In this document: one piece after another, positions 28,675 to 63,355 of the stretch
Numbering within the stretch: the stretch's first letter is position 1
Layout of the letters: each line of letters begins with the position of its first letter
NCBI GenBank assembly: GCA_951812575.1
Contig: OX638322.1
Coordinates: forward strand, 1,797,925-1,861,924
Source: Candidatus Binatia bacterium
Lineage (GTDB): Bacteria; Desulfobacterota; Binatia; Bin18
DNA length: 64,000 nt
Direction of reading: 5' to 3'
The notes under the pieces: generated by a model
What the model was told of the DNA's origin: nothing
The model's input: the letters and a program-made list of their open reading frames with translations, nothing else
Database searches by the model: none
Position numbers and translations under genes: made by a program

Positions 28675-28783
28675 TGGTAATTTTACTAGACACACGGTCG
28701 CCAGGGAGGTATAGATGGCTGGTTCGCGTCAGCGGCACGGCTGGGAGCCGATGACAGATCCTGGTAATTTTACTAGACACACG
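28607..28783. repeat. Imperfect tandem duplication of about 87 bp at the IS edge
   Basis: The 34-base block at 28663-28696 (GATGACAGATCCTGGTAATT and onward to CACACG) is repeated exactly at 28750-28783. The preceding 50 bases of each unit are only loosely alike (CCAGGGAAGTATACC versus CCAGGGAGGTATAGA). The first block contains the right IS terminus, so the duplication arose together with or after the insertion. It directly precedes the ribosome binding site of the RCC1 gene. Confidence 0.65.
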
Positions 28784-28816
28784 TCGGATTATTTTTCACT
28801 GATAAAGGAGCCGTTT

Positions 28817-31800: not shown

Positions 31801-32182
31801 TACGGGGGTGAGCCTAGGGGTAGCGATAATCACGGTGACAGCGGATGACGGGACCGGTGCGCCCAATGCCACGGCTACGGCGACCCTCGCGGTGGTCACC
31901 ACCAACACGGCGCCGGTCATCACGGCCATCGCGGATAAGACCGTCGAGGTGGGCGGCACGACCACGGTCGCCGTTACGGTCAGCGATGCGAATGGGCACA
32001 CGGTCACGTTGACGGCCAGTTCGTCGGCTCCGACCGTCGCTACGGTGAGTGTGAGTGAGCACACCCTCACGATCACGGGGGTAGCAGTGGGGACGACGAC
32101 GATCACGGTGACGGCGCATGACGGGACCGGCGCGGGTAATGCCACGGCCACGACAACCTTCACGGTGTACGTGGCCTCCTAG
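28817..32182 (+). CDS. Giant secreted RCC1-repeat / Ig-like repeat protein
   Basis: A 1121-residue protein with a signal peptide (about 27 residues, ending VVSAGAQ) and AAAGGAGCCGTTT before ATG 28817. The order is one Ig-like module (about 30-120), then 14 RCC1-type blades of about 37 residues (about 126-660), then five Ig/cadherin-like modules of about 90 residues (about 660-1121). The blade consensus is VSAGxxHTCGLKDDDTVACWG, then xxxxGQ. Two Cys are kept in almost every blade. RCC1 blades fold into seven-bladed propellers, so 14 would make two. The protein should be extracellular or surface-bound; no enzyme domain is present. Blades share long identical DNA runs, a sign of recent expansion. 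Paralogues lie at 54027 and 58253. Confidence 0.88.
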   Translation: MRSTLQTVLSLVGAIVALSGWVVSAGAQTNTAPVIAAVEDVELYGGNTTEVAVTVTDADGDQPTLTASSLDPVIATVSVNALTLTVTGGIQGETTITVTADDGTGASNGTATRTFTVFTGVPYWEAFTMVSEGVLHSCGLRDDGTVVCWGDDSEGQATVPAGTFLTVSAGAWHTCGLKDDDTVACWGRDQHGQATVPAGTFLTVSAGAHHTCGLKDDDTVACWGWDEYGQVTTVPAATTFRTVSAGYYHTCGLKDDDTVACWGRNADGQATAPSGTFLTVSAGTNHTCGLKDDDTLACWGDQGWDSQGGTTPAGTFRTVNAGHRRSCGVQDDDTLVCWGFDYYGSNFYSQNTPPAGTFRTVSVGYYHSCGVLTAGAAVCWGSNTEGQSSPPPSDTSRTVSAGHWHSCKLEGDGAAVCWGDDSENQVSDTPADSFFMVDAGGKQTCGLKTNNTVVCWGRNGDGESSPPTDNDFQAVSAGWKHSCGLKTNGEVTCWGWNHYGQRNPPAGTFRMVSAGLHHTCGVREDSTVACWGRDQHGQATVPAALTTAPFHSVSAGYDHTCGLKDDDTVACWGRDQHGQATVPTALTTAPFHSVSAGRDHTCGVQADGTVACWGSDADDQLIQSDEAFRLVSAGRDHSCGVYADGTVDCWGDNAKGQIDGLNEPPVITAIADVAVKVGATSEVEVTVSDADEDDITLTVDSFNTAAATVSVSGQTLTLTGVAAGTATITVTADDGTIYTNATATASFTVTVSENTTPVITAIADVAVKVGATSEVGVTVSDADGDDITLTASSEDTDVATVSVSGHILTITGVAAGTTTLTVTANDGTGLENATATTSFAVTVSNTAPVIAAIANVELYEGNTLGVEVTVSDANGDTITLTASSEDTSVATVSLSEQTLTITGVATGETTITVTADDGTGEDNATSTTSFTVAIVDNEPPVFTVPPVWGTTVDVGDTTTVAVTVSDADNDTVTLTASSSAPTVATVSVSEHTLTITGVSLGVAIITVTADDGTGAPNATATATLAVVTTNTAPVITAIADKTVEVGGTTTVAVTVSDANGHTVTLTASSSAPTVATVSVSEHTLTITGVAVGTTTITVTAHDGTGAGNATATTTFTVYVAS

Positions 32183-39960: not shown

Positions 39961-40008
39961 GGCCTCAGTCGGCCCATGCCCCAGGGTCTTGGGGCATGGG
40001 CCGAGGCC
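39961..40008. terminator. Strong hairpin downstream of the AT-richer operon
   Basis: GGCCCATGCCCCA (39971-39983) pairs perfectly with 39990-40002 around a six-base loop. After a four-base bulge GGCCTC (39961-39966) pairs with GAGGCC (40003-40008). It follows the last gene of the minus-strand operon ending at 40064. No T-run follows, so termination would need Rho or the hairpin alone. Confidence 0.55.
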
Positions 40009-40063
40009 ATGTTCCGGTATGAGGATAAGCGGATGTTTGGGGCCGGGGGAAGAAGGGGGAGGT

Positions 40064-40774
40064 TTAGATTTCTTCAATCCTCTTCTCAATAATATCGTAG
40101 CCCCGATGTCCTTCTATGAAAGAGAACCCTTTGTAAACTTTTCCGATAAAGTCAGTCAGATATTTTGTCTGGTCATAACCAGGCGTGCTAGATTCTAAGT
40201 TCGTGAGTACCGCTTCCAAGTGAGTGAAAAAATTGAACGTTTCAGCGTTGGTTATCGGGTAGTTGTGAAGGACATAACTTATCTGCTTGGCCAAAATACG
40301 AAGATTTAAGATTATCTCTTGATATTGATCCCCACCTTTCGAGACTTGGTTCATAAATGCGTATATCCCTGTATCAGCTTCATCGCCACCCTCGAATGCG
40401 GCCTGAAAACCATCGATTGTCAAAAGCCGCTCCACTGTTTCGCTGTCGGCTTGAAGGTCTTTTCTACCACCTTCCTGACTGGCAAAGATGATTTGATATA
40501 AAATCTCCTTCTTCACATCTAAATAACACTGTCTAAAATTATCTTTCATGATTCGACACTTATTCCTCTTCGGAAGGTGGACGACAAGGAAATAGAACAG
40601 AAACGAGATCAATCCTCCAGTCAGAAAGGAAGACGATATGTGGTAGAAATCGTCCCACCATATTTTTTCAGTGCAGAAAAGGAAATTATTGGAAAGGAGA
40701 TAGATATAAAAGAGCAGGGTTATCAGAAACCAAAACAGAACACTTGAGAATACCCGCCGTACACGACTGGTCAT
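40064..40774 (-). CDS. Two-TM hypothetical protein with helical cytoplasmic domain
   Basis: A 236-residue protein. Two N-terminal helices (about 8-28 and 45-68, FLTGGLISFLFYFLVVHL) are followed by a soluble, mostly helical domain of about 165 residues. Its base composition is clearly richer in A+T than genes on either side. Its ATG overlaps the stop of the SLR gene (ATGA), so it is translationally coupled. No family is recognised. It resembles membrane-anchored effectors or regulators found in variable operons, but nothing more can be said. Confidence 0.7.
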   Translation of the reverse strand: MTSRVRRVFSSVLFWFLITLLFYIYLLSNNFLFCTEKIWWDDFYHISSSFLTGGLISFLFYFLVVHLPKRNKCRIMKDNFRQCYLDVKKEILYQIIFASQEGGRKDLQADSETVERLLTIDGFQAAFEGGDEADTGIYAFMNQVSKGGDQYQEIILNLRILAKQISYVLHNYPITNAETFNFFTHLEAVLTNLESSTPGYDQTKYLTDFIGKVYKGFSFIEGHRGYDIIEKRIEEI

Positions 40775-41847
40775 TTAATCGCGCCATGCTCCTTCCGCCA
40801 CTCCTGCGCTAGATGTTGAGCTTCGGCGATCTGAACTGGGGTCATCTTCTTTGCAACACTGTCACGGGCTTCAGGCGATTTTTTATTTCCATTTCCTCCT
40901 GCAAGATTGAACCACATATGAGCTTGAATATAATCCTGTGGCACGCCTTCACCTCGAAAATACATGACTCCAATATTATGTTGTGCCGATGCTCGCGTAT
41001 TCTGTGATGTTTTGTATCGAGGCTCATCCACTATCCGACGATACCACCGCATCGCCTCTGTGTGATCTTGTAAGACGCCCTGACCGTCGTGGTACATGAG
41101 GGCTAGATTGAACTGCGCAGAAGCTTTCAAAAATGAACTTTCAGCATGTTCGGCAACACGCTCAAGCCATCTCGCTGCCTCTCCATAGTCTTGCGGAACA
41201 CCCAGGCCCTCATCATGCATGAGGGCTAGATTGAACTGCGCACGAGCATCACCCTGTTCAGCAGAAAGGCGATACCATTTTGCTGCTTCAGCATAATCTT
41301 GTGACACGCCATTACCCAAACTGTACTTAAGACCCAACTCGTATTGTGCCTCATGATCCCCTAGATCAGCCGCACGACGAAACCATGCGATTGCCTTAGC
41401 ATCATCTTCTTTCACTGCGCCGTGACCATTGTCATACATGTAGCCGAGATAATACGCCGCCTCCCTGTGTCCTTTCTCTGCTGCATTCCGCAGTAACATC
41501 AGTGCCTTAGAACTATCCCCCTCGATACCCCATCCGCCAAAATACATGATACCAAGGTTGCCCTGTGCGCCCGTATGTCCTTGCTCGGCCGCACGCCGAT
41601 ACCATTTCACTGCCTCCTCAAAGTCTAGAGGTACATCCTGGGCTTCGTCGTACATGACGCCGAGATTATATTGCGCCTCTGCATGCCCAGCTTCGGCGGC
41701 TTCCAAACATATAGCGAACCGCGTTGTGGGTCCCAGTTCCCTATTAAAACAATCAGCAACGCTATAGCCTTGACCAATGAAAGAGCGTGGGTCTACACAG
41801 GCCCAGGCTAGCGAGACACAAAGGGGAAGCCAAAGGGAAGGTTTCAT
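40771..41847 (-). CDS. Exported Sel1-like repeat protein
   Basis: A 358-residue protein with about seven Sel1-like repeats (for example AEAGHAEAQYNLGVMYDEAQ and AADLGDHEAQYELGLKYSLG). The N-terminal hydrophobic stretch LWLPLCVSLAWAC could be a signal peptide, possibly a weak lipobox. ATG 41847 is used; the frame extends to a TTG at 41868. It is the middle gene of a three-gene operon coupled to the downstream membrane protein by a 4-base overlap. It probably scaffolds the two membrane proteins. Confidence 0.8.
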   Translation of the reverse strand: MKPSLWLPLCVSLAWACVDPRSFIGQGYSVADCFNRELGPTTRFAICLEAAEAGHAEAQYNLGVMYDEAQDVPLDFEEAVKWYRRAAEQGHTGAQGNLGIMYFGGWGIEGDSSKALMLLRNAAEKGHREAAYYLGYMYDNGHGAVKEDDAKAIAWFRRAADLGDHEAQYELGLKYSLGNGVSQDYAEAAKWYRLSAEQGDARAQFNLALMHDEGLGVPQDYGEAARWLERVAEHAESSFLKASAQFNLALMYHDGQGVLQDHTEAMRWYRRIVDEPRYKTSQNTRASAQHNIGVMYFRGEGVPQDYIQAHMWFNLAGGNGNKKSPEARDSVAKKMTPVQIAEAQHLAQEWRKEHGAIK

Positions 41848-41864
41848 CTTTGAATAGAAAGGGA

Positions 41865-42536
41865 TCAATCAGGAAAGTCAGAACTATCGCTATAAATCTG
41901 AAAAAACTTATATACGTCAAGATCAGACAACCGGGCCGACACAATCTCAGACATACGGATGACCACACGAAAATCTGTGCTTTTATTCCACTTTCCTGCC
42001 CCTGCAAAACTGATCAAGACCGGCACATAATTCGTCGTAATTTCCAATTGCTGTGTGTCCTCTTTTCTATATCCGCTCGCTAGAGGAATCACTGAGATAT
42101 CAAGCTGGCCTGGCCCGACTATTTCAGCTACATAACCGATATAAGACTTTCTGCTCTTAAGTGAAACCTCAATAGGTTTTGTATGCTGCATAGACTCAAT
42201 AAGAAGCGGCTCTATCATTCGACCCATATTGCGTGCCGCTCTTACGGCCATCTCATTTTTATCAAAGAAAGGATTGAGCACGTGTGGTACAAAGAGACCA
42301 ATCGAAATACTAAAAATAGCCGGTCCAGTATCGCTGAATGATGAAAAGCCTTCTAAAGTTGGACAGAACTGTGGACATAGGCGGTTGATAACCAAAATGG
42401 CACCATAATATCCGCCAAGCGCAAAAAGGACCCCAATGCTTACAGACTCAAATACGAGACGGTAGCCAGACACTGCTCCTCGGTCCCAAACTCCTGCCCC
42501 AGTTGTTTTAACGTCAGCATCCTCCTCCTTCAGCAC
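41865..42536 (-). CDS. Two-TM hypothetical protein
   Basis: A 223-residue protein. Two membrane helices (about 28-50, YRLVFESVSIGVLFALGGYY, and 70-95, TGPAIFSISIGLFVPHVLNP) precede a beta-rich C-terminal domain of about 130 residues. It begins the AT-richer operon. No family is recognised. With the gene at 40064 it gives two membrane proteins of similar plan around a Sel1 scaffold. Confidence 0.7.
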   Translation of the reverse strand: MLKEEDADVKTTGAGVWDRGAVSGYRLVFESVSIGVLFALGGYYGAILVINRLCPQFCPTLEGFSSFSDTGPAIFSISIGLFVPHVLNPFFDKNEMAVRAARNMGRMIEPLLIESMQHTKPIEVSLKSRKSYIGYVAEIVGPGQLDISVIPLASGYRKEDTQQLEITTNYVPVLISFAGAGKWNKSTDFRVVIRMSEIVSARLSDLDVYKFFQIYSDSSDFPD

Positions 42537-51278: not shown

Positions 51279-53411
51279 ATGAAAGCCAAGCAGGTTGTCA
51301 CGTTGATTGCGCTCGCAGTGTTGATCGTCCTGTTCTTTGTGTTCGATTTGAACCGGCTTCTGACCTTCGAGTATATGGAGTCGCAACGCCATGCCATCTC
51401 TACCTTCCAGCAACAGCATCCCCTCATAACCGCGGGAGCGTTTTTTGCGCTCTACGTGGTGGTCACCGGTCTTTCTCTGCCCGGCGCAGCGGTGCTGACG
51501 CTCACCGCCGGGGCCGTTTTCGGCCTGCTGGCGGGGGTGCTCCTGGTCTCGTTCGCCAGCTCGCTGGGCGCGACAGTGGCGTTCTCTCTTGCCCGCTATC
51601 TGTTCCGCGACACCGTGCGGGCGCGGTTTGCGCGCCCGCTGGCCGCCATTGACCGAGGTGTCAAAAAAGACGGCGCCTTTTATCTGTTTGCCCTGCGGCT
51701 GGTGCCGGCCTTTCCGTTCTTTGCGATCAATCTGGCGATGTCGGTCACACCGCTGTCGACCTGGACCTTCTATTGGGTCAGCCAGGTCGGCATGTTGGCC
51801 GGGACCGTGGTCTACGTCAACGCCGGGGCTCAGTTGGGCCAGCTTACCTCGCTGAGCGGCATCCTGTCCCCCACGCTGATCTTTTCCTTTGTCCTGCTCG
51901 GCCTGTTTCCGCTGCTAGCGAAAAAAGGGCTGGACTCTGCCAAGTCACGCGCAGCCTTACGTCGGTTCAAGAAACCCAAGCATTTCGACATGAATCTCGT
52001 CGTCATTGGGGCGGGTTCCGGTGGCCTGGTCGCAGCCCTGATTGCCGCCACCGTCAAGGCCAAGGTGACCTTGATCGAGCGACACCGCATGGGCGGCGAC
52101 TGCCTGAATACCGGCTGTGTGCCGAGCAAAGCCTTACTGCGCTCGGCAAAGATGCTGAGCTATATGGGGCGCGCCAAAGAATTCGGGTTCAAGCGCGCGA
52201 GCGTGGAGTTCGAATTTGCCGACGTTATGGAGCGGGTCCAGCGCGTCATCAAGACCATTGAGCCCAACGACTCGGTGGAGCGGTACACCGGCCTGGGTGT
52301 AGAGTGCGTCCTGGGCGATGCCACGATAGTCTCGCCCTACAAGGTCCGGGTGAACGGCCGAGAGATCACCACCCGCAACATCATCCTTGCCACGGGCGGG
52401 GTGCCCTTTGTGCCGCCTATCCCCGGTCTGGCGGAAGTCGGCTATTACACCTCGGATACGGCCTGGGAGCTGCGCGCCCTGCCGCGCCGGCTCGTCGTCC
52501 TCGGTGGTGGCCCCATCGGCTGTGAGCTGGCCCAGGCGTTTTCGCGCCTGGGCGCGTCGGTGACGATGGTGGAGCGGAACCCGCATGTACTGATGCGCGA
52601 AGACCTCGACGCGGTCGAGTTGATGCAGGCCCAGTTTGCAGCGGAAGGCATCCGCATATTGACTGACCACAGCGCGCTTCGAGTCGAGACACAGGGCCAG
52701 GACAGGCGGCTGGTCTGCGAACACGCCGGGGACGAAGTGGTTGTACCGTTCGACGCTGTGCTGGTGGCTGTGGGACGAAAACCGACTACTGACGGCCTCG
52801 GCCTTGAGCAGCTGGGGGTTGCCCTGAGCGAGCGCGGCACTGTTGAAGTGGATGAATATCTGCGGACCAGCATCCCGACAATTTATGCGTGTGGCGATGT
52901 TATCGCTCCGTATCAATTCACGCATACCGCCTCGCATGAGGCCTGGTATGCGTCCGTGAACGCCTTATTCGGCCCCTTCAAGCGGTTCAAGGCCGACTAT
53001 TCGGTCATCCCGTGGACGACCTTCACAGACCCCGAGGTGGCGCGCGTCGGCTTGAATGAACAGGAAGCCGAACGACAGGGTATCCCGGTCGAGGTGACGC
53101 GCTACCATCTTGAAGACCTCGACCGCGCCCTGGCCGACGAAGAAGGACGGGGTTTTGTCAAAGTGCTGACCCCACCGGGCAAGGATCGTATCCTCGGCGT
53201 GACCATTGTCGGCCATCACGCCGGCGAACTCCTGACCGAGTTCATCCTCGCCATGAAGTGGAGATTGGGGTTGAACAAGATCATGAGCACCATCCACGTC
53301 TACCCGACGCTGACCGAAGCGAACAAATACGCGGCCAGCACGTGGCGCAAGAACAACGCTCCGCAGGGCGTGCTGAGGTGGGTGGGGAAATTCCACAGCC
53401 TGTGGCGGTAA
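51279..53411 (+). CDS. TVP38/DedA-type membrane domain fused to mercuric-reductase-like FAD disulfide oxidoreductase
   Basis: A 710-residue fusion. Residues 1-225 form a TVP38/TMEM64-type domain with five to six helices and LRLVPAFPFFAINLAMSV. From about 238 a pyridine-nucleotide disulfide oxidoreductase follows: VVIGAGSGGL (FAD), redox pair C275/C280 in GGDCLNTGCVPSK, the NAD-site VVLGGGPIGCELAQAFSRLG and the second FAD motif TIYACGDV. Near the C-terminus IHVYPTLTE has Tyr where dihydrolipoamide dehydrogenase has the active-site His, as in mercuric-reductase relatives. It probably passes electrons from NAD(P)H to a membrane thiol or metal substrate. The last 43 codons are duplicated at 56822-56948. 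Confidence 0.9.
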   Translation: MKAKQVVTLIALAVLIVLFFVFDLNRLLTFEYMESQRHAISTFQQQHPLITAGAFFALYVVVTGLSLPGAAVLTLTAGAVFGLLAGVLLVSFASSLGATVAFSLARYLFRDTVRARFARPLAAIDRGVKKDGAFYLFALRLVPAFPFFAINLAMSVTPLSTWTFYWVSQVGMLAGTVVYVNAGAQLGQLTSLSGILSPTLIFSFVLLGLFPLLAKKGLDSAKSRAALRRFKKPKHFDMNLVVIGAGSGGLVAALIAATVKAKVTLIERHRMGGDCLNTGCVPSKALLRSAKMLSYMGRAKEFGFKRASVEFEFADVMERVQRVIKTIEPNDSVERYTGLGVECVLGDATIVSPYKVRVNGREITTRNIILATGGVPFVPPIPGLAEVGYYTSDTAWELRALPRRLVVLGGGPIGCELAQAFSRLGASVTMVERNPHVLMREDLDAVELMQAQFAAEGIRILTDHSALRVETQGQDRRLVCEHAGDEVVVPFDAVLVAVGRKPTTDGLGLEQLGVALSERGTVEVDEYLRTSIPTIYACGDVIAPYQFTHTASHEAWYASVNALFGPFKRFKADYSVIPWTTFTDPEVARVGLNEQEAERQGIPVEVTRYHLEDLDRALADEEGRGFVKVLTPPGKDRILGVTIVGHHAGELLTEFILAMKWRLGLNKIMSTIHVYPTLTEANKYAASTWRKNNAPQGVLRWVGKFHSLWR

Positions 53412-56400
53412 CCCCGCCGGCCGCACCGCCCGGGTCGCTCCCGCTACCTGGATTGATCCGGGACCAAATTCAACTAGCCTGGAATGAAGCTGCAGATTGG
53501 GAGGTTGATGCCATGTATGAAATCGGTGCCCTCGAGTCAAAGTCCCCCCGGCCGCCCCGGCTACGGCGCGTTCAGGCCGGGGCGGGTTTCCTCCGTCCCC
53601 AACAGCCTCGGCCCGTGGCCGCGTGGCGCCCTTGTCAGCCGTCGGATTCCGGCAAGGGGTGCGTAGCGGGGGCCAGGCGGCAGGAGTTTCAGCGCCCGCC
53701 CAGGCGGTCAGGCAAGTCGGGGCGCCCGATGATCGAGGCCAGGCGTCCGTTCGGGCGGCCGGAGTGGCCCAGGGTCCGGTCTGGGTGCCGCGCCCAGGGG
53801 CTCTGGGCCGTCCTGGCGGTCGTGGTGGGGGGAGGGCTGCTACTGCCGCGGCTGACCGGGGCGACCACGGTCCATGATCACGCCGGGCAGCCGGTCACCC
53901 GCTTCCCGGCCGAGGAAGGTCAGCTCCTCCACCATCGCGGCCGCCGCCCCTCGGCGCCGGCGGCGGCCGCGTCGGCGGCCATGTCGCTGCCCGCCTTTAC
54001 CCAACAGATTGAACAGGAGGTGGACAGTGGGCGGTAAGACTGGTCCGTTCTGCTCGTGGGGGGGGGTGTTGCTCGTCGTTCTGCCGCTGCTGCTCCTTCT
54101 GACGTGGGGGCTGCGGCACAGCCACGCCTTTAGCGGAGTGGGAGTGGGGGCGGAGCACAGTTGCGGGCTGCGGGTGGATGGCAGGGTGGAGTGCTGGGGT
54201 GCCGACGAGTATGGGCAGGTGAGCGCGACGCCGCCCGGCGCGGACTTTGTGGCGGTGAGTGGGGGGGGGAAGCAGGTCTGCGGGGTGCAGGCCGATGGGC
54301 GGGCAGTGTGCTGGGGGCGGGACGGGGATGGGGAGTCCAGTGTGCCGGTGCCGGAGAGCATGTTGAGTACGGGGGGGGAGCACAGTTGCGGGGTGCAGGC
54401 CGATGGGACGCTGGTCTGCTGGGGTGCGGACACCTATGACCAGGTGAGCGATACCCCCGCCGGCCGTTTTGTGGGGGTGAATGCGGGACTGTATCACAGT
54501 TGCGGGGTGCAGGCCGATAACACCCTGGCGTGCTGGGGTGCGGACTCTGCGGGGCAGGTGGGCGAGACGCCTGGCGGCGATTTTTTTCTGGCGGTGAGTG
54601 CGGGGGGGGAGCACAGTTGCGGGCGGGCGCGGGGGGACAGGCTGGTGTGCTGGGGGGACGACACCTTTGGGCAGGTGAGCGGGACGCCGTCCGAGGCCGC
54701 CTTTGTGGCGGTGAGTGCAGGGATGTGGCACAGCTGCGCGGTGCGGCGCGACGCCAGCCTGGCGTGCTGGGGGCTCGACAGCTATGGCGCGATCAGCGAT
54801 ACGCCCCCGGGCGCCTTTGTGGCGGTGAGTGTGGGGGTATCGTACAGCTGCGCGGTGCAGACCGACGGCCGCTTGGCGTGCTGGGGGCGCAACGACTATC
54901 GGCAAGTCAGCGATTGGCCCCCGGGTGCCTTTGTGGCGGTGAGTGCGGGCTATTTTCACAGTTGCGGGCTGCGGGCGGATGGGACGGTGGCGTGCTGGGG
55001 GCGGGACGACTCTGGGCAGGTGAGCGGGGCGCCGTCCGAGGCGACCTTTGTGTCGGTGAGTGCGGGGGGGAATCACAGTTGCGGGGAGAAGAGCGATGGG
55101 ACGGTGGTCTGCTGGGGCGCCGACACCGCCAAGCAGGTGAGCGCGACGCCCACCACCCCCCTGTTCGACACCCTCTTTCGCGCGGTGGATGCGGGGCGCA
55201 AGCACAGTTGCGGGGTGCAGAGCAGTGGCACGGTCACCTGTTGGGGCTGGCACCACTATGGGCAGACCCGGGTCCCGGCGGCTCTCCGGGACGCCGAGTT
55301 TGTGTCGGTGAGTGCGGGGGGGAATCACAGTTGCGGGGTGCGGGACGATCTCACCCTGGCGTGTTGGGGCCGTAACGACTTTAACCAAACGACCAATACG
55401 CCCGACGGGACGTTTAGCCAGGTGAGTGTGGGGATGTGGCACAGCTGCGGGGTCAAGCTCGATGGCAGCGTGGCGTGCTGGGGGCGCAACAACCATCAGC
55501 AGGTGAGCGATACGCCCACCGGCACCTTTAGCCGGGTGAGTGCGGGGTGGGATTTCAGCTGTGGGGTGCGGACGGAGGGGACGGTCGCGTGCTGGGGCCG
55601 GGACGCCTATCAGCAGGTGAGCGATCTGCCTGGCGGTACCTTTAGCCGGGTGAGTGTGGGGCAGTATCACGGCTGCGGGCTGCGGACCGATGGCGAGATC
55701 ATCTGTTGGGGCCGTAACAACCAGGGTCAGGCTCCAACCAACATCGCGCCGAAGCTGGCACCCCTGGCGCCGGTGGTCATCGGGGTAGACCGCCTGACCG
55801 AGGTGGCCGTCCTCGTCATCGACGCCGATGGGGACGTGCCCACGCTGACGGCGACCTCGTCCGCCCCGGCCATTGCCACCGTGGCGGTGGATGGGCACAC
55901 GCTGACCATGACCGGGGTGGCGCTGGGCGAGGCCACGATCACGCTGACGGCGGATGACGGAACCGGCGCGAGCAATGCCACGAGCACGACGACCTTCGGG
56001 GTCACGGTAGCGGCCGATACGGCGTGGCGGGCGGTGAGTGCAGGTTTTCTGCACACCTGCGGGCTGCGGGTGGATGGCAGCGTGGCCTGCTGGGGCTGGA
56101 ACGTCAATGAGCAGGCGCCCGATACCGACTTTATGGCAGTGAGTGCGGGGAGTTCTCACACCTGCGGGCTGCAGCGCGATGGCACGCTGGCCTGCTGGGG
56201 CAACAACCCGTATGGTCAGGCCACGCCGCCGCCCGGCGATTTTGTCGCGGTGAGTGCGGGGGGGTATCATAGCTGTGGGCTCAGGGCCGGCGGCACGCTG
56301 GCCTGCTGGGGCCGTGACACCGAGGGCCAGGCCACGGTACCCACCTCCCTCACCGAGACCCCCTTTGCCGCGGTGGGTGCGGGGTGGTATCACACCTGCG

Positions 56401-56821
56401 GGCTGCAGCGCGATGGCAGTGTGGCCTGCTGGGGCACCAACAACTTTGGCCAAGCCACGCCGCCGCCCGGCGATTTTGCCGCGGTGAGTGTGGGGTGGTA
56501 TCACAGTTGCGGGCTGCGGCGCGATGGCACGCTGGCCTGCTGGGGCACCAACAACTTTGGCCAGGCCACGCCGCCGCCCGGCGATTTTGTCGCGGTGAGT
56601 GCGGGGTGGGAGCACACCTGCGGGCTGCAGCGCGATGGCAGTGTGGCCTGCTGGGGCGCCAACAACTTTGGCCAAGCCACGCCGCCGCCTGGCGATTTTA
56701 TCGCGGTGAGTGCGGGGGGGGAGCACACCTGCGGGTTGCAGCGCGATGGCAGTGTGGCCTGCTGGGGCCGCAACAACTATGGCCAGGCCGGGGATGGGGA
56801 GTCCACGCCGCCGGTGCCGGA
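53285..56821. repeat. Tandem segmental duplication, copy A
   Basis: The unit starts within the oxidoreductase gene (GAGCACCATCCACG at 53285) and ends where the same 14 bases recur at 56822. It carries the oxidoreductase tail, the short partner gene and the RCC1 gene. Compared with copy B it lacks 331 bp of intergenic DNA, 357 bp of the partner gene and 798 bp of the RCC1 gene. Confidence 0.85.
53513..54037 (+). CDS. Partner protein of RCC1 gene, copy A (internally deleted)
   Basis: A 174-residue version of the protein at 57382-58263. GGGAGG stands eight bases before the ATG. Residues 1-90 are a Pro/Arg-rich stretch, then comes a membrane anchor or signal (LWAVLAVVVGGGLLLPRL). After GATTV it jumps straight to HDHAGQPVTRFPAEEG, having lost 119 codons that form the beta-rich domain in copy B. 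The deletion is in frame and lies between direct repeats CCACGGTCC. It likely has no independent function, but the C-terminus and the overlap with the next start are kept. Confidence 0.6.
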   Translation: MYEIGALESKSPRPPRLRRVQAGAGFLRPQQPRPVAAWRPCQPSDSGKGCVAGARRQEFQRPPRRSGKSGRPMIEARRPFGRPEWPRVRSGCRAQGLWAVLAVVVGGGLLLPRLTGATTVHDHAGQPVTRFPAEEGQLLHHRGRRPSAPAAAASAAMSLPAFTQQIEQEVDSGR

Positions 56822-56948
56822 GAGCACCATCCACGGCTACCCGACGCTGACCGAAGCGAACAAATACGCGGCCAGCACGTGGCGCAAGAACAACGCTCCG
56901 CAGGGCGTGCTGAGGTGGGTGGGGAAATTCCACAGCCTGTGGCGGTAA
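54027..56948 (+). CDS. Secreted RCC1-repeat protein, copy A, with oxidoreductase-derived tail
   Basis: A 973-residue protein starting at GTG 54027, six bases after AGGAGG and overlapping the partner gene by 11 bases. A signal/anchor helix (LLVVLPLLLLLTWGL) leads directly to blade 1 (AFSGVGVGAEHSCGL). There are 14 RCC1 blades (about 35-570), one Ig-like module (about 572-665) and seven more blades (665-930), 21 in all. The final 43 residues (from STIHGYPTLTEANKYAAS) are the duplicated C-terminus of the oxidoreductase, fused in frame. The matrixin domain of copy B is missing. Long opposite-strand open frames here are composition artefacts. Confidence 0.85.
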   Translation: MGGKTGPFCSWGGVLLVVLPLLLLLTWGLRHSHAFSGVGVGAEHSCGLRVDGRVECWGADEYGQVSATPPGADFVAVSGGGKQVCGVQADGRAVCWGRDGDGESSVPVPESMLSTGGEHSCGVQADGTLVCWGADTYDQVSDTPAGRFVGVNAGLYHSCGVQADNTLACWGADSAGQVGETPGGDFFLAVSAGGEHSCGRARGDRLVCWGDDTFGQVSGTPSEAAFVAVSAGMWHSCAVRRDASLACWGLDSYGAISDTPPGAFVAVSVGVSYSCAVQTDGRLACWGRNDYRQVSDWPPGAFVAVSAGYFHSCGLRADGTVACWGRDDSGQVSGAPSEATFVSVSAGGNHSCGEKSDGTVVCWGADTAKQVSATPTTPLFDTLFRAVDAGRKHSCGVQSSGTVTCWGWHHYGQTRVPAALRDAEFVSVSAGGNHSCGVRDDLTLACWGRNDFNQTTNTPDGTFSQVSVGMWHSCGVKLDGSVACWGRNNHQQVSDTPTGTFSRVSAGWDFSCGVRTEGTVACWGRDAYQQVSDLPGGTFSRVSVGQYHGCGLRTDGEIICWGRNNQGQAPTNIAPKLAPLAPVVIGVDRLTEVAVLVIDADGDVPTLTATSSAPAIATVAVDGHTLTMTGVALGEATITLTADDGTGASNATSTTTFGVTVAADTAWRAVSAGFLHTCGLRVDGSVACWGWNVNEQAPDTDFMAVSAGSSHTCGLQRDGTLACWGNNPYGQATPPPGDFVAVSAGGYHSCGLRAGGTLACWGRDTEGQATVPTSLTETPFAAVGAGWYHTCGLQRDGSVACWGTNNFGQATPPPGDFAAVSVGWYHSCGLRRDGTLACWGTNNFGQATPPPGDFVAVSAGWEHTCGLQRDGSVACWGANNFGQATPPPGDFIAVSAGGEHTCGLQRDGSVACWGRNNYGQAGDGESTPPVPESTIHGYPTLTEANKYAASTWRKNNAPQGVLRWVGKFHSLWR

Positions 56949-57048
56949 CCCCGCCGGCCGCACCGCCAGCCTCCCATGCGCGTCCGGGGTTTTGCCTGAG
57001 AGCGCCGGCCCGGTGTCCTAGGACACCTCACGATGCTGTGTAGCCGCT

Positions 57049-57381: not shown

Positions 57382-58263
57382 ATGCATGAAATCAGTGCCC
57401 TCGAGTCAAAGTCCCCCCGGCCGCCCCGGCTACGGCGCGTTCAGGCCGGGGCGGGTTTCCTCCGTCCCCAACAGACTCGGCCCGTGGCCGCGGGGCGCCC
57501 TTGTCAGCCGCCGGATTCCGGCAAGGGGTGCGTAGCGGGGGCCAGGCGGCCGGCGTTTCAGCGCCCGCCCAGGCGGTCAGGCAAGTCGGGGCGCCCGATG
57601 ATCGAGGCCGGGCGGCCGTTCGGGCGGCCGGAGTGGCCCAGGGTCCGGTCTGGGTGCCGCGCCCAGGGGCTCTGGGCCGTCCTGGCGGTCGTGGTGGGGG
57701 GAGGGCTGCTGCTGCCGCGGCTGACCGGGGCGACCACGGTCCTGGCGTACTCGTTTGCCAGCCTGGTGCAGGCGGCCGAGGTGATTGCCGTGGGCACCGT
57801 GACGGCCATTGAGAACCGGTGGGATGCCGAGAAGGAAGCGCCGTTTACCCTGGTGACGTTCTCGGACCTGGAGGTGTTGAAAGGCGAGGTGAGCCAGAGC
57901 ACCTGGACCTTGCATTTTCTGGGTGGCCCGACGCCGGACGGGCGCACCTTGCAGCTTGTCGGGGTGCCGCAGTTCCGGGTGGGCGAACGCTGTATTGTGT
58001 TTAGTGCCGGCAACGAGCATCAGGCGGTGCCGCTGGTCGGCCTGTGGCAGGGGGTGTACCGGGTGGAGTTTGATGCCCAGCGGGGGGTGGCCACGGTCCA
58101 TGATCACGCCGGGCAGCCGGTCACCCGCTTCCCGGCCGAGGAAGGTCAGCTCCTCCACCATCGCGGCCGCCGCCCCTCGGCGCCGGCGGCGGCCGCGTCG
58201 GCGGCCATGTCGCTGCCCGCCTTTACCCAACAGATTGAACAGGAGGTGGACAGTGGGCGGTAA
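57382..58263 (+). CDS. Partner protein of RCC1-protease gene, copy B (full length)
   Basis: A 293-residue protein; AGGAGG stands eight bases before ATG 57382. A later start at 57598 just before the hydrophobic segment is also possible, as residues 1-90 are Pro/Arg/Gly-rich. A signal or anchor (LWAVLAVVVGGGLLLPRL) precedes a beta-rich domain of about 120 residues: FASLVQAAEVIAVGTVTAIE, LEVLKGEVSQSTWTLHFLGG, FRVGERCIVFSAGNE and LVGLWQGVYRVEFD. I recall this type of protein next to matrixin-like protease genes in other bacteria, but without a known role. It overlaps the next start by 11 bases. Confidence 0.7.
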   Translation: MHEISALESKSPRPPRLRRVQAGAGFLRPQQTRPVAAGRPCQPPDSGKGCVAGARRPAFQRPPRRSGKSGRPMIEAGRPFGRPEWPRVRSGCRAQGLWAVLAVVVGGGLLLPRLTGATTVLAYSFASLVQAAEVIAVGTVTAIENRWDAEKEAPFTLVTFSDLEVLKGEVSQSTWTLHFLGGPTPDGRTLQLVGVPQFRVGERCIVFSAGNEHQAVPLVGLWQGVYRVEFDAQRGVATVHDHAGQPVTRFPAEEGQLLHHRGRRPSAPAAAASAAMSLPAFTQQIEQEVDSGR

Positions 58264-61200
58264 GACTGGTCCGTTCTGCTCGTGGGGGGGGGTGTTGCTC
58301 GTCGTTCTGCCGCTGCTGCTCCTTCTGACGTGGGGGCTGCGGCACAGCCACGCCTTTTCATTGCTTCCTTTTCCCCGGTGGGACTCCGAGGTCACGCTCA
58401 ACCTGCGCCTTGGGTGCCCTGACGAGCCGCTCCCCAAATGGGGGCCGTGCTGGGATGATGTGGCGGAACATGCGGCACAGGAGTGGAACACAGCGAGAGC
58501 CAATTTTCGGTTTCACATCCGGTCGCCCAGTCGGCCGGTTGGGTGTGACAATTCAAGAGATGGCCTCGTCACCGTCAGATGGTCGGCTGACTGCGGCACA
58601 TCCTTACCCAGCTTCGTGTTGGCTCTTACGCATCATTGGCACTCCGACGCAGGAATCGATAACGAAGTGGTTTTTAATAGCGACCGTCACTGGACAACCT
58701 ATTCGGGGCCATGGAGACCTACCGAGAAGGATTTCCACCGGATTGCGCTGCACGAATTCGGCCATGTCCTGGGTCTCGATCATCCGGACGGGGCTGGCCA
58801 GTCCGTGGATGCCATTATGAACGCTGCGGCAGACGATGCCGATCAACTCCAGGCCGACGATATCGCGGGGATTCGGGCCATCTACGGGCGCCTGATCGCG
58901 CCCCTGGCGCCGGTGGTCGTCGGGCTGGCCGGCCAGACCGAGCTGGACGTCATTATCGATGTCGAGGAGGCCGACGCTCTCACGCTGACGGCGGTCTCGT
59001 CTGACCCGGCCATCGCGACCGTGGCGGTAGATGAGCAGACGCTGACTGTCACCGGGGAGGCCCTGGGGCAGGCGACGATCACGCTGACGGTGGATGACGG
59101 GACGTCCACGACGACAACGACCTTCGGAGTCACAGTAGCGGTCGATAGGGCGTTTAGCGGAGTGGGAGTGGGGGCGGAGCACAGTTGTGGGCTGCGGGTG
59201 GATGGCAGGGTGGAGTGCTGGGGTGCCGACGACAAGGGGCAGGTGAGCGCGACGCCGCCCGGCGCGGACTTTGTGGCGGTGAGTGGGGGGGGGAAGCAGG
59301 TCTGCGGGGTGCAGGCCGATGGGCGGGCAGCGTGCTGGGGGCGGGACGGGGATGGGGAGTCCAGTGTGCCGGTGCCGGAGAGCATGTTGAGTACGGGGGG
59401 GGAGCACAGTTGCGGGGTGCAGGCCGATGGGACGCTGGTCTGCTGGGGTGCGGACACCTATGACCAGGTGAGCGATACCCCCGCCGGCCGTTTTGTGGGG
59501 GTGAATGCGGGCTTGTATCACAGTTGCGGGGTGCAGGCCGATAACACCCTGGCGTGCTGGGGTGCGGACTCTGCGGGGCAGGTGGGCGAGACGCCTGGCG
59601 GCGATTTTTTTCTGGCGGTGAGTGCGGGGGGGGAGCACAGTTGCGGGCGGGCGCGGGGGGACAGGCTGGCGTGCTGGGGGGACGACACCTTTGGGCAGGT
59701 GAGCGGGACGCCGTCCGAGGCCGCCTTTGTGGCGGTGAGTGCAGGGATGTGGCACAGCTGCGCGGTGCGGCGCGACGCCAGCCTGGCGTGCTGGGGGCTC
59801 GACAGCTATGACGCGATCAGCGATACGCCCCCGGGCGCCTTTCGTGCGGTGAGTGTGGGGGTATCGTACAGCTGCGCGGTGCAGACCGACGGCCGCCTGG
59901 CGTGCTGGGGGCGCAACAACTATCGGCAAGTCAGCGATTGGCCCCCGGGCGCCTTTGTGGCGGTGAGTGCGGGCTATTTTCACAGTTGCGGGCTGCGGGC
60001 GGATGGGACGGTGGCGTGCTGGGGGCGGGACGACTCTGGGCAGGTGAGCGGGGCGCCGTCCGAGGCGACCTTTGTGTCGGTGAGTGCGGGGGGGAATCAC
60101 AGTTGCGGGGAGAAGAGCGATGGGACGGTGGTCTGCTGGGGCGCCGACACCGCCAAGCAGGTGAGCGCGACGCCCACCACCCCCCTGTTCGACGCCACCT
60201 TTCGCGCGGTGGATGCGGGGCGCAAGCACAGTTGCGGGGTGCAGAGCAGTGGCACGGTCACCTGTTGGGGCTGGCACCACTATGGGCAGACCCGGGTCCC
60301 GGCGGCTCTCCGGGACGCCGAGTTTCTGTCGGTGAGTGCGGGGGGGAATCACAGTTGCGGGGTGCGGGACGATCTCACCCTGGCGTGTTGGGGCCGTAAC
60401 GACTTTAACCAAACGACCAATACGCCCGACGGGACGTTTAGCCAGGTGAGTGTGGGGATGTGGCACAGCTGCGGGGTCAAGCTCGATGGCAGCGTGGCGT
60501 GCTGGGGGCGCAACAACCATCAGCAGGTGAGCGATACGCCCACCGGCACCTTTAGCCGGGTGAGTGCGGGGTGGGATTTCAGCTGTGGGGTGCGGACGGA
60601 GGGGACGGTCGCGTGCTGGGGCCGGGACGCCTATCAGCAGGTGAGCGATCTGCCTGGCGGTACCTTTAGCCGGGTGAGTGTGGGGCAGTATCACGGCTGC
60701 GGGCTGCGGGTCGATGGCGAGATCATCTGTTGGGGCCGTGACAACCAGGGTCAGATCAGGAATGTAGCGCCGGAGCTGGCACCCCTGGCGCCGGTGGTCA
60801 TCGGGGTAGACCGCCTGACCGAGGTGGCCGTCCTCGTCATCGACGCCGATGGGGACGTGCCCACGCTGACGGCGACCTCGTCCGCCCCGGCCATTGCCAC
60901 CGTGGCGGTGGATGGGCACACGCTGACCATCACCGGGGTGGCGCTGGGCGAGGCCACGATCACGCTGACGGCGGATGACGGGACCGGCGCGAGCAATGCC
61001 ACGAGCACGACGACCTTCGGGGTCACGGTAGCGGCCGATACGGCGTGGCGGGCGGTGAGTGCAGGTTTTCTGTACACCTGCGGGCTGCGGGTGGATGGCA
61101 GCGTGACCTGCTGGGGCTGGGTCAATGAGCAGGCGCCCGATGCCGACTTTATGGCGGTCAGTGCGGGGAAGTATCATACCTGCGGGCTGCAGCGCGATGG

Positions 61201-61819
61201 CACGCTGGCCTGCTGGGGCACCAACTCGTATGGTCAGGCCACGCCGCCGCCCGGCGATTTTGTCGCGGTGAGTGCGGGGGGGAATCATAGCTGTGGGCTC
61301 AGGGCCGGCGGCACGCTGGCCTGCTGGGGCCGTGACACCGAGGGCCAGGCCACGGTACCCACCTCCCTCACCGAGACCCCCTTTGCTGCGGTGAGTGCGG
61401 GGTGGTATCACACCTGCGGGCTGCAGCGCGATGGCACGCTGGCCTGCTGGGGCTTCAACAACGATGGCCAAGCCACGCCGCCGCCCGGCGATTTTGCCGC
61501 GGTGAGTGTGGGGTGGTATCACACCTGCGGGCTGCAGCGCGATGGCACGCTGGCCTGCTGGGGCTTCAACAACGATGGCCAAGCCACGCCGCCGCCCGGC
61601 GATTTTGTCGCGGTCAGTGCGGGGAGGTATCACACCTGCGGGCTGCAGCGCGATGGCAGTGTGGCCTGCTGGGGCGCCAACAACGATGGCCAAGCCACGC
61701 CGCCGCCTGGCGATTTTATCGCGGTGAGTGCGGGGTGGGATCACACCTGCGGGTTGCAGCGCGATGGCAGTGTGGCCTGCTGGGGCGCCAACAACGATGG
61801 TCAGGCCACACCGCCGTAA
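58253..61819 (+). CDS. Secreted matrixin-type metalloprotease fused to RCC1 and Ig-like repeats (copy B)
   Basis: An 1188-residue protein; GTG 58253 lies six bases after AGGAGG. The order is a signal/anchor helix (about 10-27), a zinc protease domain (about 36-212), an Ig-like module (212-298), 14 RCC1 blades (299-838), an Ig-like module and seven more blades (930-1188). The protease has HEFGHVLGLDH at 167-177, the metzincin HExxHxxGxxH site, and a Met-turn (AIMNA, Met189), so it should be active outside the cell. The frame ends at an early TAA (61817-61819) with RCC1 sequence continuing behind it. The propellers may bind substrate or surface. Confidence 0.88.
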   Translation: MGGKTGPFCSWGGVLLVVLPLLLLLTWGLRHSHAFSLLPFPRWDSEVTLNLRLGCPDEPLPKWGPCWDDVAEHAAQEWNTARANFRFHIRSPSRPVGCDNSRDGLVTVRWSADCGTSLPSFVLALTHHWHSDAGIDNEVVFNSDRHWTTYSGPWRPTEKDFHRIALHEFGHVLGLDHPDGAGQSVDAIMNAAADDADQLQADDIAGIRAIYGRLIAPLAPVVVGLAGQTELDVIIDVEEADALTLTAVSSDPAIATVAVDEQTLTVTGEALGQATITLTVDDGTSTTTTTFGVTVAVDRAFSGVGVGAEHSCGLRVDGRVECWGADDKGQVSATPPGADFVAVSGGGKQVCGVQADGRAACWGRDGDGESSVPVPESMLSTGGEHSCGVQADGTLVCWGADTYDQVSDTPAGRFVGVNAGLYHSCGVQADNTLACWGADSAGQVGETPGGDFFLAVSAGGEHSCGRARGDRLACWGDDTFGQVSGTPSEAAFVAVSAGMWHSCAVRRDASLACWGLDSYDAISDTPPGAFRAVSVGVSYSCAVQTDGRLACWGRNNYRQVSDWPPGAFVAVSAGYFHSCGLRADGTVACWGRDDSGQVSGAPSEATFVSVSAGGNHSCGEKSDGTVVCWGADTAKQVSATPTTPLFDATFRAVDAGRKHSCGVQSSGTVTCWGWHHYGQTRVPAALRDAEFLSVSAGGNHSCGVRDDLTLACWGRNDFNQTTNTPDGTFSQVSVGMWHSCGVKLDGSVACWGRNNHQQVSDTPTGTFSRVSAGWDFSCGVRTEGTVACWGRDAYQQVSDLPGGTFSRVSVGQYHGCGLRVDGEIICWGRDNQGQIRNVAPELAPLAPVVIGVDRLTEVAVLVIDADGDVPTLTATSSAPAIATVAVDGHTLTITGVALGEATITLTADDGTGASNATSTTTFGVTVAADTAWRAVSAGFLYTCGLRVDGSVTCWGWVNEQAPDADFMAVSAGKYHTCGLQRDGTLACWGTNSYGQATPPPGDFVAVSAGGNHSCGLRAGGTLACWGRDTEGQATVPTSLTETPFAAVSAGWYHTCGLQRDGTLACWGFNNDGQATPPPGDFAAVSVGWYHTCGLQRDGTLACWGFNNDGQATPPPGDFVAVSAGRYHTCGLQRDGSVACWGANNDGQATPPPGDFIAVSAGWDHTCGLQRDGSVACWGANNDGQATPP

Positions 61820-62023
61820 CTCGCCGTCAGGGTGGTGCACAGTTGCGGGCTGAAGTCTGACAACACCCTGGCCTGCTGGGGCGCGGACTCCGATGGGCAG
61901 GTGAGCAAGAGGCCTGGCGGCATCTTGCTGGCGGTGAGTGCCGGCGGGTTGCACAGTTGCGGGCTACGGCGCAATGGAACGCTGACGTGCTGGGGCAACG
62001 ACGCCGATGAGCAGGTGAGCAAG
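61820..62023 (+). pseudogene. RCC1 blades separated from copy B by a stop codon
   Basis: The same reading frame continues after the TAA with LAVRVVHSCGLKSDNTLACW, then GADSDGQVSKRPGG and LAVSAGGLHSCGLRRNGTLT. That is almost two more blades, after which the frame enters the opposite-strand glycosyltransferase gene. The joint at the stop lacks part of a blade (PPGDF...SAG), so a small deletion created it. It might be read through or re-initiated at GTG 61832, but it lacks a proper end. Confidence 0.7.
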
Positions 62024-62026
62024 TGT

Positions 62027-63355
62027 CTATTGATCCCTGCGGCTGATACGCCCCAACACAGGCCAGGCCAGCGCCAGCCCAATCAGTCCGAACTCCAGCA
62101 GGCGGGCCCAGAGCGGCTGCTGATAGGCTTGCAGCGCGTAGTCATTCAGATGCAGCCCTGTGACGTACGAGAGCAGGACGGCCATGGAGGCCGTCCAGGC
62201 CCATATGCTGGGAAAGATCGCCGCAAAGGGCAGCAGCCAGAGCAGATACCAGGGATTGATGACCGGCGAGGCCGCCAGCAGCACACCGTAGACCCAGTCG
62301 CCGCGCGGAACGGACTGCCCCTCGTCCCGGCGATACCGCCGATAGCACCAGCCCCAGAACAGGGCGCCGGCCAGCCCCAAAACGAGCTTGGCCTCGAAGG
62401 CTGGCAGCGCCAGCGTCAACAGCCCATAGGCCGCAGAGTTAAACTCCCATTCCTGGGCGAAGACCAGCAGCGAGTACAGGTCCGTGCCGCCGCTCAGGGC
62501 GAACGGCGCGTAGAGGGCCGTCAGCGTAGCGCCGAACAGGACCCAGTGCCGGACTGAGGCACTGACCAGCACGAACGGCACCAGCACCAGGGCGAATATC
62601 TTGGCCCCACAGGCCAGACCCAGACATACCGCGGCGCTCCGCCAGCGGTAGTTCCGGGCCAGGACGAGCGCGGCCAGCAGCAGGCCGACGCCGATGCCGT
62701 CCGGGTGAGCGGTGAAGGCGATTTCCTTGATTACCAGCGGACACCAGGCGTAGAGCATGACGTTTCGCGCCGGTGCCAGGCGCAGCAGCAGGATTACAGT
62801 GGCAAGGTCAACGACAATCAGCAGACCCTGCAAGGCCGCGATGCTGCCCGGCCGCAGCCAGTAGCCGAGCAGGAAGACGAACTGTGTCGTCGGGCCGTAG
62901 ATGGTTGGCAACTCGGGATGATTGATCCCATCCAACACACTATGGAACGCGGTGGGAACAGTCGGGTCGGTGAAAAATGCTTCCGGGACGACGGCGTAGG
63001 GTGTGCCGGTGGTGGCAAAGCGATAGCCGTCCCACAGGTAGCGATAGAAGTCGTCTTCGAGCAGCGGTCCGCCAACCAGTCCGCAGATTCTGAAAGCTAT
63101 AGCCCAGAAGAGCAGACGGTCGAGCGGGACCGGTTCGTCACGCCGGTGGCAGTACAGGAAGAGGCCGAATACCGGCAGGCCGGTCCAGGCCATCAGGATG
63201 AAGAAGGCGACCAGGTCGGGTTCGCCAGGGGGCCGCGCCAAAAAGGCGAGGGCGGCGTAGCCCAGGGTACAGCTCAGACCGACCGCATCCACCAGCCGGC
63301 GCGCCGCCGCGCTCGGTTGCCCACCCCCGTTTGCGCCGACTCTCGACTCAAGCAT
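62027..63355 (-). CDS. GT-C type membrane glycosyltransferase (polyprenyl-phosphate sugar dependent)
   Basis: A 442-residue protein with about 11-13 membrane helices. LLEDDFYRYLWDGYRFATTG (near residue 98), followed by TPYAV, is the acidic first-loop motif of GT-C mannosyltransferase-like enzymes (DUF2029/GT87 group). SPVINPWYLLWLLPFAAI near 365 is also usual. It should transfer a sugar from a lipid-linked donor on the periplasmic side, to lipid or envelope glycan. The gene ends against the truncated RCC1 region. Confidence 0.8.
   Translation of the reverse strand: MLESRVGANGGGQPSAAARRLVDAVGLSCTLGYAALAFLARPPGEPDLVAFFILMAWTGLPVFGLFLYCHRRDEPVPLDRLLFWAIAFRICGLVGGPLLEDDFYRYLWDGYRFATTGTPYAVVPEAFFTDPTVPTAFHSVLDGINHPELPTIYGPTTQFVFLLGYWLRPGSIAALQGLLIVVDLATVILLLRLAPARNVMLYAWCPLVIKEIAFTAHPDGIGVGLLLAALVLARNYRWRSAAVCLGLACGAKIFALVLVPFVLVSASVRHWVLFGATLTALYAPFALSGGTDLYSLLVFAQEWEFNSAAYGLLTLALPAFEAKLVLGLAGALFWGWCYRRYRRDEGQSVPRGDWVYGVLLAASPVINPWYLLWLLPFAAIFPSIWAWTASMAVLLSYVTGLHLNDYALQAYQQPLWARLLEFGLIGLALAWPVLGRISRRDQ

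Follow-up and report, generated by a model that had tools for sequence, protein, structure and literature searches.

Metzincins are usually kept latent, and a secreted member of this group that carries no pro-domain raises the question of what holds it in check. We address this question for a locus in Candidatus Binatia bacterium, whose genome is a single 5.18-Mb contig, using a stretch of 64,000 nucleotides (the window) in which a matrixin is joined to a long array of RCC1 blades. A preliminary description of the same DNA centered on that fusion and passed over the small gene directly upstream, which in our view matters more.

A matrixin mounted on RCC1 propellers

The window carries a tandem duplication, whose members we call copy A and copy B; the protease lies in copy B (Table 1). 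Its ORF begins with a GTG at 58253 and ends with a TAA at 61817-61819. An AGGAGG ribosome-binding site six bases from the GTG supports this start, which overlaps the stop codon of the upstream, companion gene (58261-58263). Since the ribosome-binding site lies within the companion gene, translation of the protease is likely to be coupled to that of the companion.

Table 1. Features of the protease locus and its duplicate in the window
Feature	Coordinates	Strand	Basis
Copy A junction of the 357-bp companion-core deletion, repeat CCACGGTCC	53858..53873	+	Copy A-B comparison
Copy A: signal peptide and RCC1/Ig array without protease and Ig1	54027..56948	+	Copy A-B comparison
Copy A junction of the 798-bp deletion, repeat TTT	54126..54131	+	Copy A-B comparison
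3'-terminal 146 bp of the upstream oxidoreductase gene, repeated at 99.3% identity and joined to copy A	56822..56967	+	Comparison
Companion gene, NTR/TIMP-like secreted protein, directly upstream of protease	57382..58263	+	ORF read, profile A1
Companion conserved domain	57730..58260	+	(-3,-1) rule, AlphaFold2 model, TIMP/NTR rows
119-codon segment, the NTR/OB core, missing from copy A	57742..58098	+	Copy A-B comparison
AGGAGG ribosome-binding site of protease, within companion gene	58241..58246	+	Read from sequence
Secreted matrixin-Ig-RCC1x14-Ig-RCC1x7 protein, 1188 aa	58253..61819	+	ORF read, Pfam
Matrixin catalytic domain, directly after signal peptide, no pro-domain	58352..58894	+	Pfam, phmmer, alignment
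Zinc-binding motif HEFGHVLGLDH	58751..58783	+	Alignment with 17 relatives
Met-turn methionine (AIMN)	58817..58819	+	Alignment with 17 relatives
Ig-like Big_2 module 1	58931..59122	+	Pfam
RCC1 blades 1-14, two sets of seven	59150..60760	+	Pfam, blade count
Ig-like module 2	60794..61009	+	Pfam
RCC1 blades 15-21, third set of seven; closest solved structure BLIP-II	61028..61816	+	Pfam, sequence search
Two further RCC1 blades, in frame past the stop	61832..62026	+	ORF read, Pfam

The preliminary description had read this ORF as a complete HExxHxxGxxH and Met-turn protease fused to Ig-like modules and 21 RCC1 blades in one exported protein, and each element of that reading stands. The N-terminus resembles a signal peptide. 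Pfam detects Peptidase_M10 at residues 124-212 (E 9e-13; 48.9 bits against a curated cut-off of 24), Big_2 in two stretches (E 5e-14), and RCC1_2 in 20 stretches (E 1e-142), while a count of CWG motifs gives 21 blades arranged as 14, an Ig-like module, and 7, that is, three sets of seven. The three histidines and the glutamate of the zinc motif, as well as the methionine of the Met-turn, are invariant across 17 relatives, and phmmer matches the domain to MMP-1 and other MMPs in the PDB (E 4e-9). Neither a PRCGxPD cysteine switch nor a pro-peptide is present in the copy B matrixin, as evidenced by its sequence and the alignment of the 17 relatives.

BLIP-II (beta-lactamase inhibitory protein II), a secreted, protein-binding RCC1 propeller from Streptomyces, matches the last seven blades in a sequence search of the PDB (E 5e-40). 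Both are secreted propellers with short blades, although BLIP-II is a single propeller and carries no protease. By analogy, this likeness supports a binding function for the propellers, but not the preliminary suggestion that their targets are host or prey surfaces. The TAA comes exactly after blade 21, and the two blades that follow it lead into a convergent gene (62027-63355, minus strand); these blades are probably what is left of a fourth set. For these reasons, we considered but rejected programmed read-through of the stop.

The matrixin-RCC1 join is rare. Two ORFs contain it, both in this genome; searches for the combination, which were samples rather than exhaustive surveys, found it in no second genome, neither among the sampled loci of class genomes nor among 80 named loci of other phyla, and 20 RCC1-array stretches sampled from class genomes contained no matrixin. 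The literature searched likewise describes no protein with a matrixin-Ig-RCC1 architecture, in agreement with the earlier claim that no such secreted protease had been reported. Because the join turned up in this genome alone and is undescribed in that literature, the fusion, genuine though it is, appears to be a product of local domain shuffling and of no unusual kind.

Of 148 class genomes, 26 have RCC1 arrays; the six other genomes of the same genus have none. A third copy of the locus has 14 blades, and other arrays have 13-14 or 21. The window encodes a separate secreted protein of this sort at 28715-32182, with an Ig-like module, 14 RCC1 blades, and several more Ig-like modules but no protease, and another locus of the same array family (L201; G000:C1:2854000-2868500) has three tandem Ig-RCC1 genes of about 14, 21, and 21 blades, without protease or companion. 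The C-terminal tails of family matrixins include a GxLENP...SGWVC domain, and disulphide-rich, BACON-like, or adhesin-like repeats. Most family matrixins terminate in the first of these, a conserved GxLENPxxxSxxSGIGxISGWVC...YGTxRxDTxxVCGDxxNGF domain (e.g., L027, L028, L031, L034, L035, L036, and L043). Elsewhere in the window, G+C content falls to 0.468 at 40001-42000, compared with about 0.60 around it, which suggests an acquired segment.

A companion gene tied to metzincins

ATG 57598 is a likelier start for the companion than ATG 57382, as it yields a typical signal peptide. The conserved domain that follows has no match in Pfam, NCBIfam, or PHROG, and none of the 17 companions used to build a profile (A1) scores above the cut-off of any Pfam or NCBIfam family. 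No PDB sequence matches the profile, even at an E value of 10, and the window companion matches nothing in phage or plasmid collections at an E value of 0.1. Profile A1 finds relatives in 16 of 395 genomes of the phylum and 55 of 148 of the class, and such relatives directly precede almost every family matrixin. One genome of the family encodes a natural fusion of 800 aa that comprises a signal peptide, the companion, a matrixin, and BACON-like repeats.

A census by companion-only searches, which takes no account of the protease in finding its members, yielded 126 distinct domains. In 74 of these, the companion is fused N-terminally to a metzincin; in another 47, it directly precedes a metzincin gene on the same strand. 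Four are found just downstream of a metzincin, including one that was first scored as solitary until the neighboring ORF proved to hold a metzincin C-terminus, and the one remaining domain is at a contig end. Searching from the other side, with a matrixin profile, located the companion at about half of the named loci (39/80), which come from Acidobacteria, Verrucomicrobia, Gammaproteobacteria, Planctomycetota, and others.

This linkage bears on the plainest account of the locus, namely, that an ordinary secreted protease acquired a generic adhesive array by domain shuffling and that the upstream gene is a mere accessory. Such an account fits the many unrelated C-terminal tails of family matrixins and the RCC1 arrays without protease in this genome and class. 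Nevertheless, we regard it as very improbable, since the companion is linked to a metzincin in more than 95% of cases, whereas roughly 0.05% would be expected for a random neighbor by our own estimate from about two matrixins per genome.

Predicted fold and mature N-terminus of the companion

A TIMP-like pattern (ADxIxxGxV...LKG) was suspected while the sequence was being read, and an unbiased structure search was then made. An AlphaFold2 model of the companion from 17 aligned rows reached a pLDDT of 83.5 and a pTM of 0.80. Foldseek placed agrin NtA and TIMP-2 in its top rows, albeit with E values of only 0.02-0.09 (best, 0.024); agrin NtA is related to N-TIMP-1, according to its PDB description. 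VIA-align returned TIMP-1 (Z 8.3; 3.4 Å over 115 residues), TIMP-3 (8.2), and agrin NtA (8.2), scores of about 8 being near the range in which the tool warns of common arrangements. Its ranks 1-34, with Z from 8.3 to 5.2, are all NTR domains (TIMP, agrin NtA, complement C345C, and PCOLCE NTR), and the first row outside this class is another OB fold with a Z of 4.9. Based on this agreement of all top rows on one fold class, together with the gene linkage, the companion is predicted to have an NTR/TIMP-type OB fold. It falls outside the TIMP family proper, having no Cys1, no TIMP disulphides, and no recognizable TIMP/NTR sequence profile, so its N-terminus must be held in some other way.

In TIMPs, inhibition works through the first two residues: the free amino group and the carbonyl of the first sit on the catalytic zinc, and the second occupies the S1' pocket. 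In the window companion, the predicted signal-peptidase cut falls after Ala 57730-57732 and leaves a mature protein that begins TTVLAYSF at 57733. Among 160 companions with readable N-termini, the (-3,-1) rule is obeyed exactly before the conserved threonine in 151, compared with 75 for the next best site. The mature N-terminus reads T-T-V/F and follows an AxA signal-peptidase-I site, not a lipobox; residue 1 is threonine in 112 of the 160, and thus not invariant, while residue 2 is threonine, valine, or serine in 140. In the VIA-align superposition, residue 2 of the companion model, which is mature Thr1, aligns with TIMP residue 1, and the conserved Thr-Thr with TIMP Cys1-Thr2. Two unrelated lines of evidence, the processing pattern and the structural alignment, thus place a free N-terminus where the zinc-chelating residue of TIMPs lies.

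These data also weigh on the possibility that the companion assists folding or secretion as a chaperone, in the manner of a steric foldase, rather than acting as a zinc-directed inhibitor. Pro-domain foldases would fit the upstream position and the N-terminal fusions equally, and OB-fold secretion chaperones such as CsaA are among the weak Foldseek rows. Yet a signal-peptidase site so precisely coupled to a conserved N-terminus is unexpected for a chaperone, and CsaA is absent among the VIA-align matches listed, where the NTR domains fill the first 34 ranks. We therefore consider a chaperone unlikely.

Natural fusions as a view of the proposed complex

The fused homologues offer both domains in one chain. 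Seventy natural fusions were aligned over the part that runs from the mature N-terminus through the matrixin, and the resulting model of one of them (L088, 70 rows) had a pLDDT of 92.3 and a pTM of 0.89, values which indicate that AlphaFold2 is confident of how the two domains are arranged. Over the first ten residues, pLDDT rose to 92, versus 68 in the model of the companion alone, a gain that could partly reflect the deeper alignment. The protease part of the L088 model superimposes on MMP-1 (Z 12.1, 146 residues); for the window protein itself, the likeness to MMP-1 is at the level of sequence. In the second row, model residues 1-378 align with residues 24-197 of the karilysin zymogen (4r3v; Z 11.9, 161 residues). 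Judging from these alignment ranges, the free N-terminus of the fusion model appears to fall on the propeptide segment that blocks the karilysin cleft. Karilysin achieves latency through an aspartate switch (PMC9629494).

A proposed model for matrixin latency

Because the window matrixin has neither a pro-domain nor a cysteine switch and is coupled to the companion, the companion is the obvious candidate for keeping it latent. We propose, and think it reasonably probable, that the two genes form a secreted module of a TIMP-like latency factor or inhibitor and a propeller-borne matrixin. The first gene would supply a small secreted protein of NTR/TIMP fold, and the second, translationally coupled to it, a matrixin without a pro-domain on an Ig/RCC1 propeller array. 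The companion would hold the matrixin latent during and after export, as a TIMP supplied in cis. Signal peptidase, by cutting at the conserved Thr-Thr, would free an N-terminus that enters the active-site cleft, where its alpha-amino group would cap the catalytic zinc as Cys1 of TIMPs does. Proteolysis or dissociation would then release the companion, and the propellers would tether the freed protease to ligands, either proteins or glycans. Where the two are fused, as in 74 homologues, the companion domain may serve as a built-in N-terminal inhibitor in place of the usual pro-peptide.

Loss of protease and companion core in copy A

Copy A shares an array 97% identical to that of copy B but lacks exactly the protease and first Ig-like module, as the preliminary description had noticed, through an in-frame deletion of 798 bp (266 codons). 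A second, separate in-frame deletion of 357 bp (119 codons), which that description missed, removed the core of the companion; both signal peptides are still present. The label "binding-only version" suits copy A, which, lacking protease and inhibitor core, would be a ligand-binding array alone. The joint loss of both parts fits their proposed coupling.

A third locus in this genome (L003; C1:2233278-2236398) keeps the companion, the protease, the Ig-like module, and 14 blades, which makes copy A the derived form, produced by deletion. The opposite polarity, with copy A as ancestor, was rejected, given that protease and companion are both found in this third copy as well as in nearly every relative. 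The 146-bp repeat pair (56822-56967 and 53285-53430), whose source is the end of a VTT/pyridine-nucleotide oxidoreductase gene, is read as the breakpoint of the tandem duplication, and the oxidoreductase fragment gives the array of copy A a foreign C-terminal tail.

Copy B and the third copy have nearly identical arrays (dN 0.025, dS 0.046), whereas their proteases (dN 0.27, dS 0.17) and companions (dN 0.24, dS 0.39) have diverged. This contrast may reflect gene conversion of the array or a fast-evolving protease-inhibitor pair. The dN/dS ratios (0.85 for the array of A and B; 1.58 for the protease of B and the third copy) depend too strongly on the alignment and on gene conversion to be relied upon.

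Relation to known protease-inhibitor systems

The secreted metzincin Mtz of Listeria is encoded with a downstream TIMP-like lipoprotein, Tim, which it cleaves (Boichis et al. 2021, PMC8235301); the TIMP-likeness of Tim was predicted by threading (PMC8235301). The two systems share a secreted bacterial metzincin consistently paired with an adjacent, predicted TIMP-like gene. However, tim is downstream and encodes a lipoprotein, whereas the companion is mostly upstream or fused N-terminally and is processed by signal peptidase I; the two are set apart here by anchor and gene position. With Mtz-Tim as precedent, the companion might instead be a substrate or effector that the matrixin cleaves and releases. 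We find this distinctly unlikely, since a protein with an AxA site and no lipobox has no anchor from which to be released, and since 74 companions are fused to the protease itself.

Potempins of Tannerella forsythia are lipoproteins that inhibit proteases, and each is encoded just ahead of its target protease (PMC7296668). The ORF of potempin A (PotA) precedes that of its protease in the same order as in 47 of the companion loci, a likeness of gene order only; potempins are small lipoproteins, whereas the companion has no lipid anchor. Complexes of PotA with karilysin (8b2q) and MMP12 (8b2n) are in the PDB, and PotA is neither a sequence match to the companion profile there nor among the fold matches listed. 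PotA is an OB-fold barrel that blocks its targets by loops, and we know of no fused form of a potempin. Against these precedents, the companion family is marked by its lack of a lipid anchor, its upstream or N-terminal place, its predicted NTR-type fold, its processed N-terminus, and its spread.

Likeness to animal TIMP and NTR domains (TIMP-1/2/3, agrin NtA, and C345C) lies in the predicted fold and the position of the mature N-terminus; identity in the structural alignments is only 5-18%, and the companion has no C-terminal TIMP domain. As for karilysin and the vertebrate MMPs (MEROPS M10A), they share the zinc motif, the Met-turn, and, in the model of a fused homologue, the MMP fold, but the window matrixin lacks their cysteine switch or pro-peptide and carries other C-terminal modules.

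Implications

TIMPs are regarded as animal proteins. In the literature searched, Listeria Tim was the only bacterial TIMP-like partner found (PMC8235301). Our results suggest that widespread MMP/TIMP-like pairs probably exist in bacteria as well. More tentatively, and as a possibility that we would not yet call likely, the companions may be an unnamed bacterial family of NTR/TIMP fold, spread over several phyla, that inhibits matrixins by a signal-peptidase-made N-terminus on the zinc, either as an operon partner or as a built-in domain; it would then be the bacterial counterpart of the MMP-TIMP system of animals, which may even have arisen from it, and one protease of this kind would here have been mounted on a multi-propeller array.

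If this is true, a widespread, unannotated family of TIMP fold, tied to metzincins and often part of the same chain, would explain the latency of bacterial matrixins that lack a pro-domain. Structural studies would gain, in the fusions, MMP-TIMP-like proteins that occur naturally as a single chain, and ideas on how the MMP-TIMP pair arose could be tested. The RCC1 fusion, for its part, forms with the paralogue that has no protease a clear example of how a protease is mounted on a BLIP-II-like array and lost from it.
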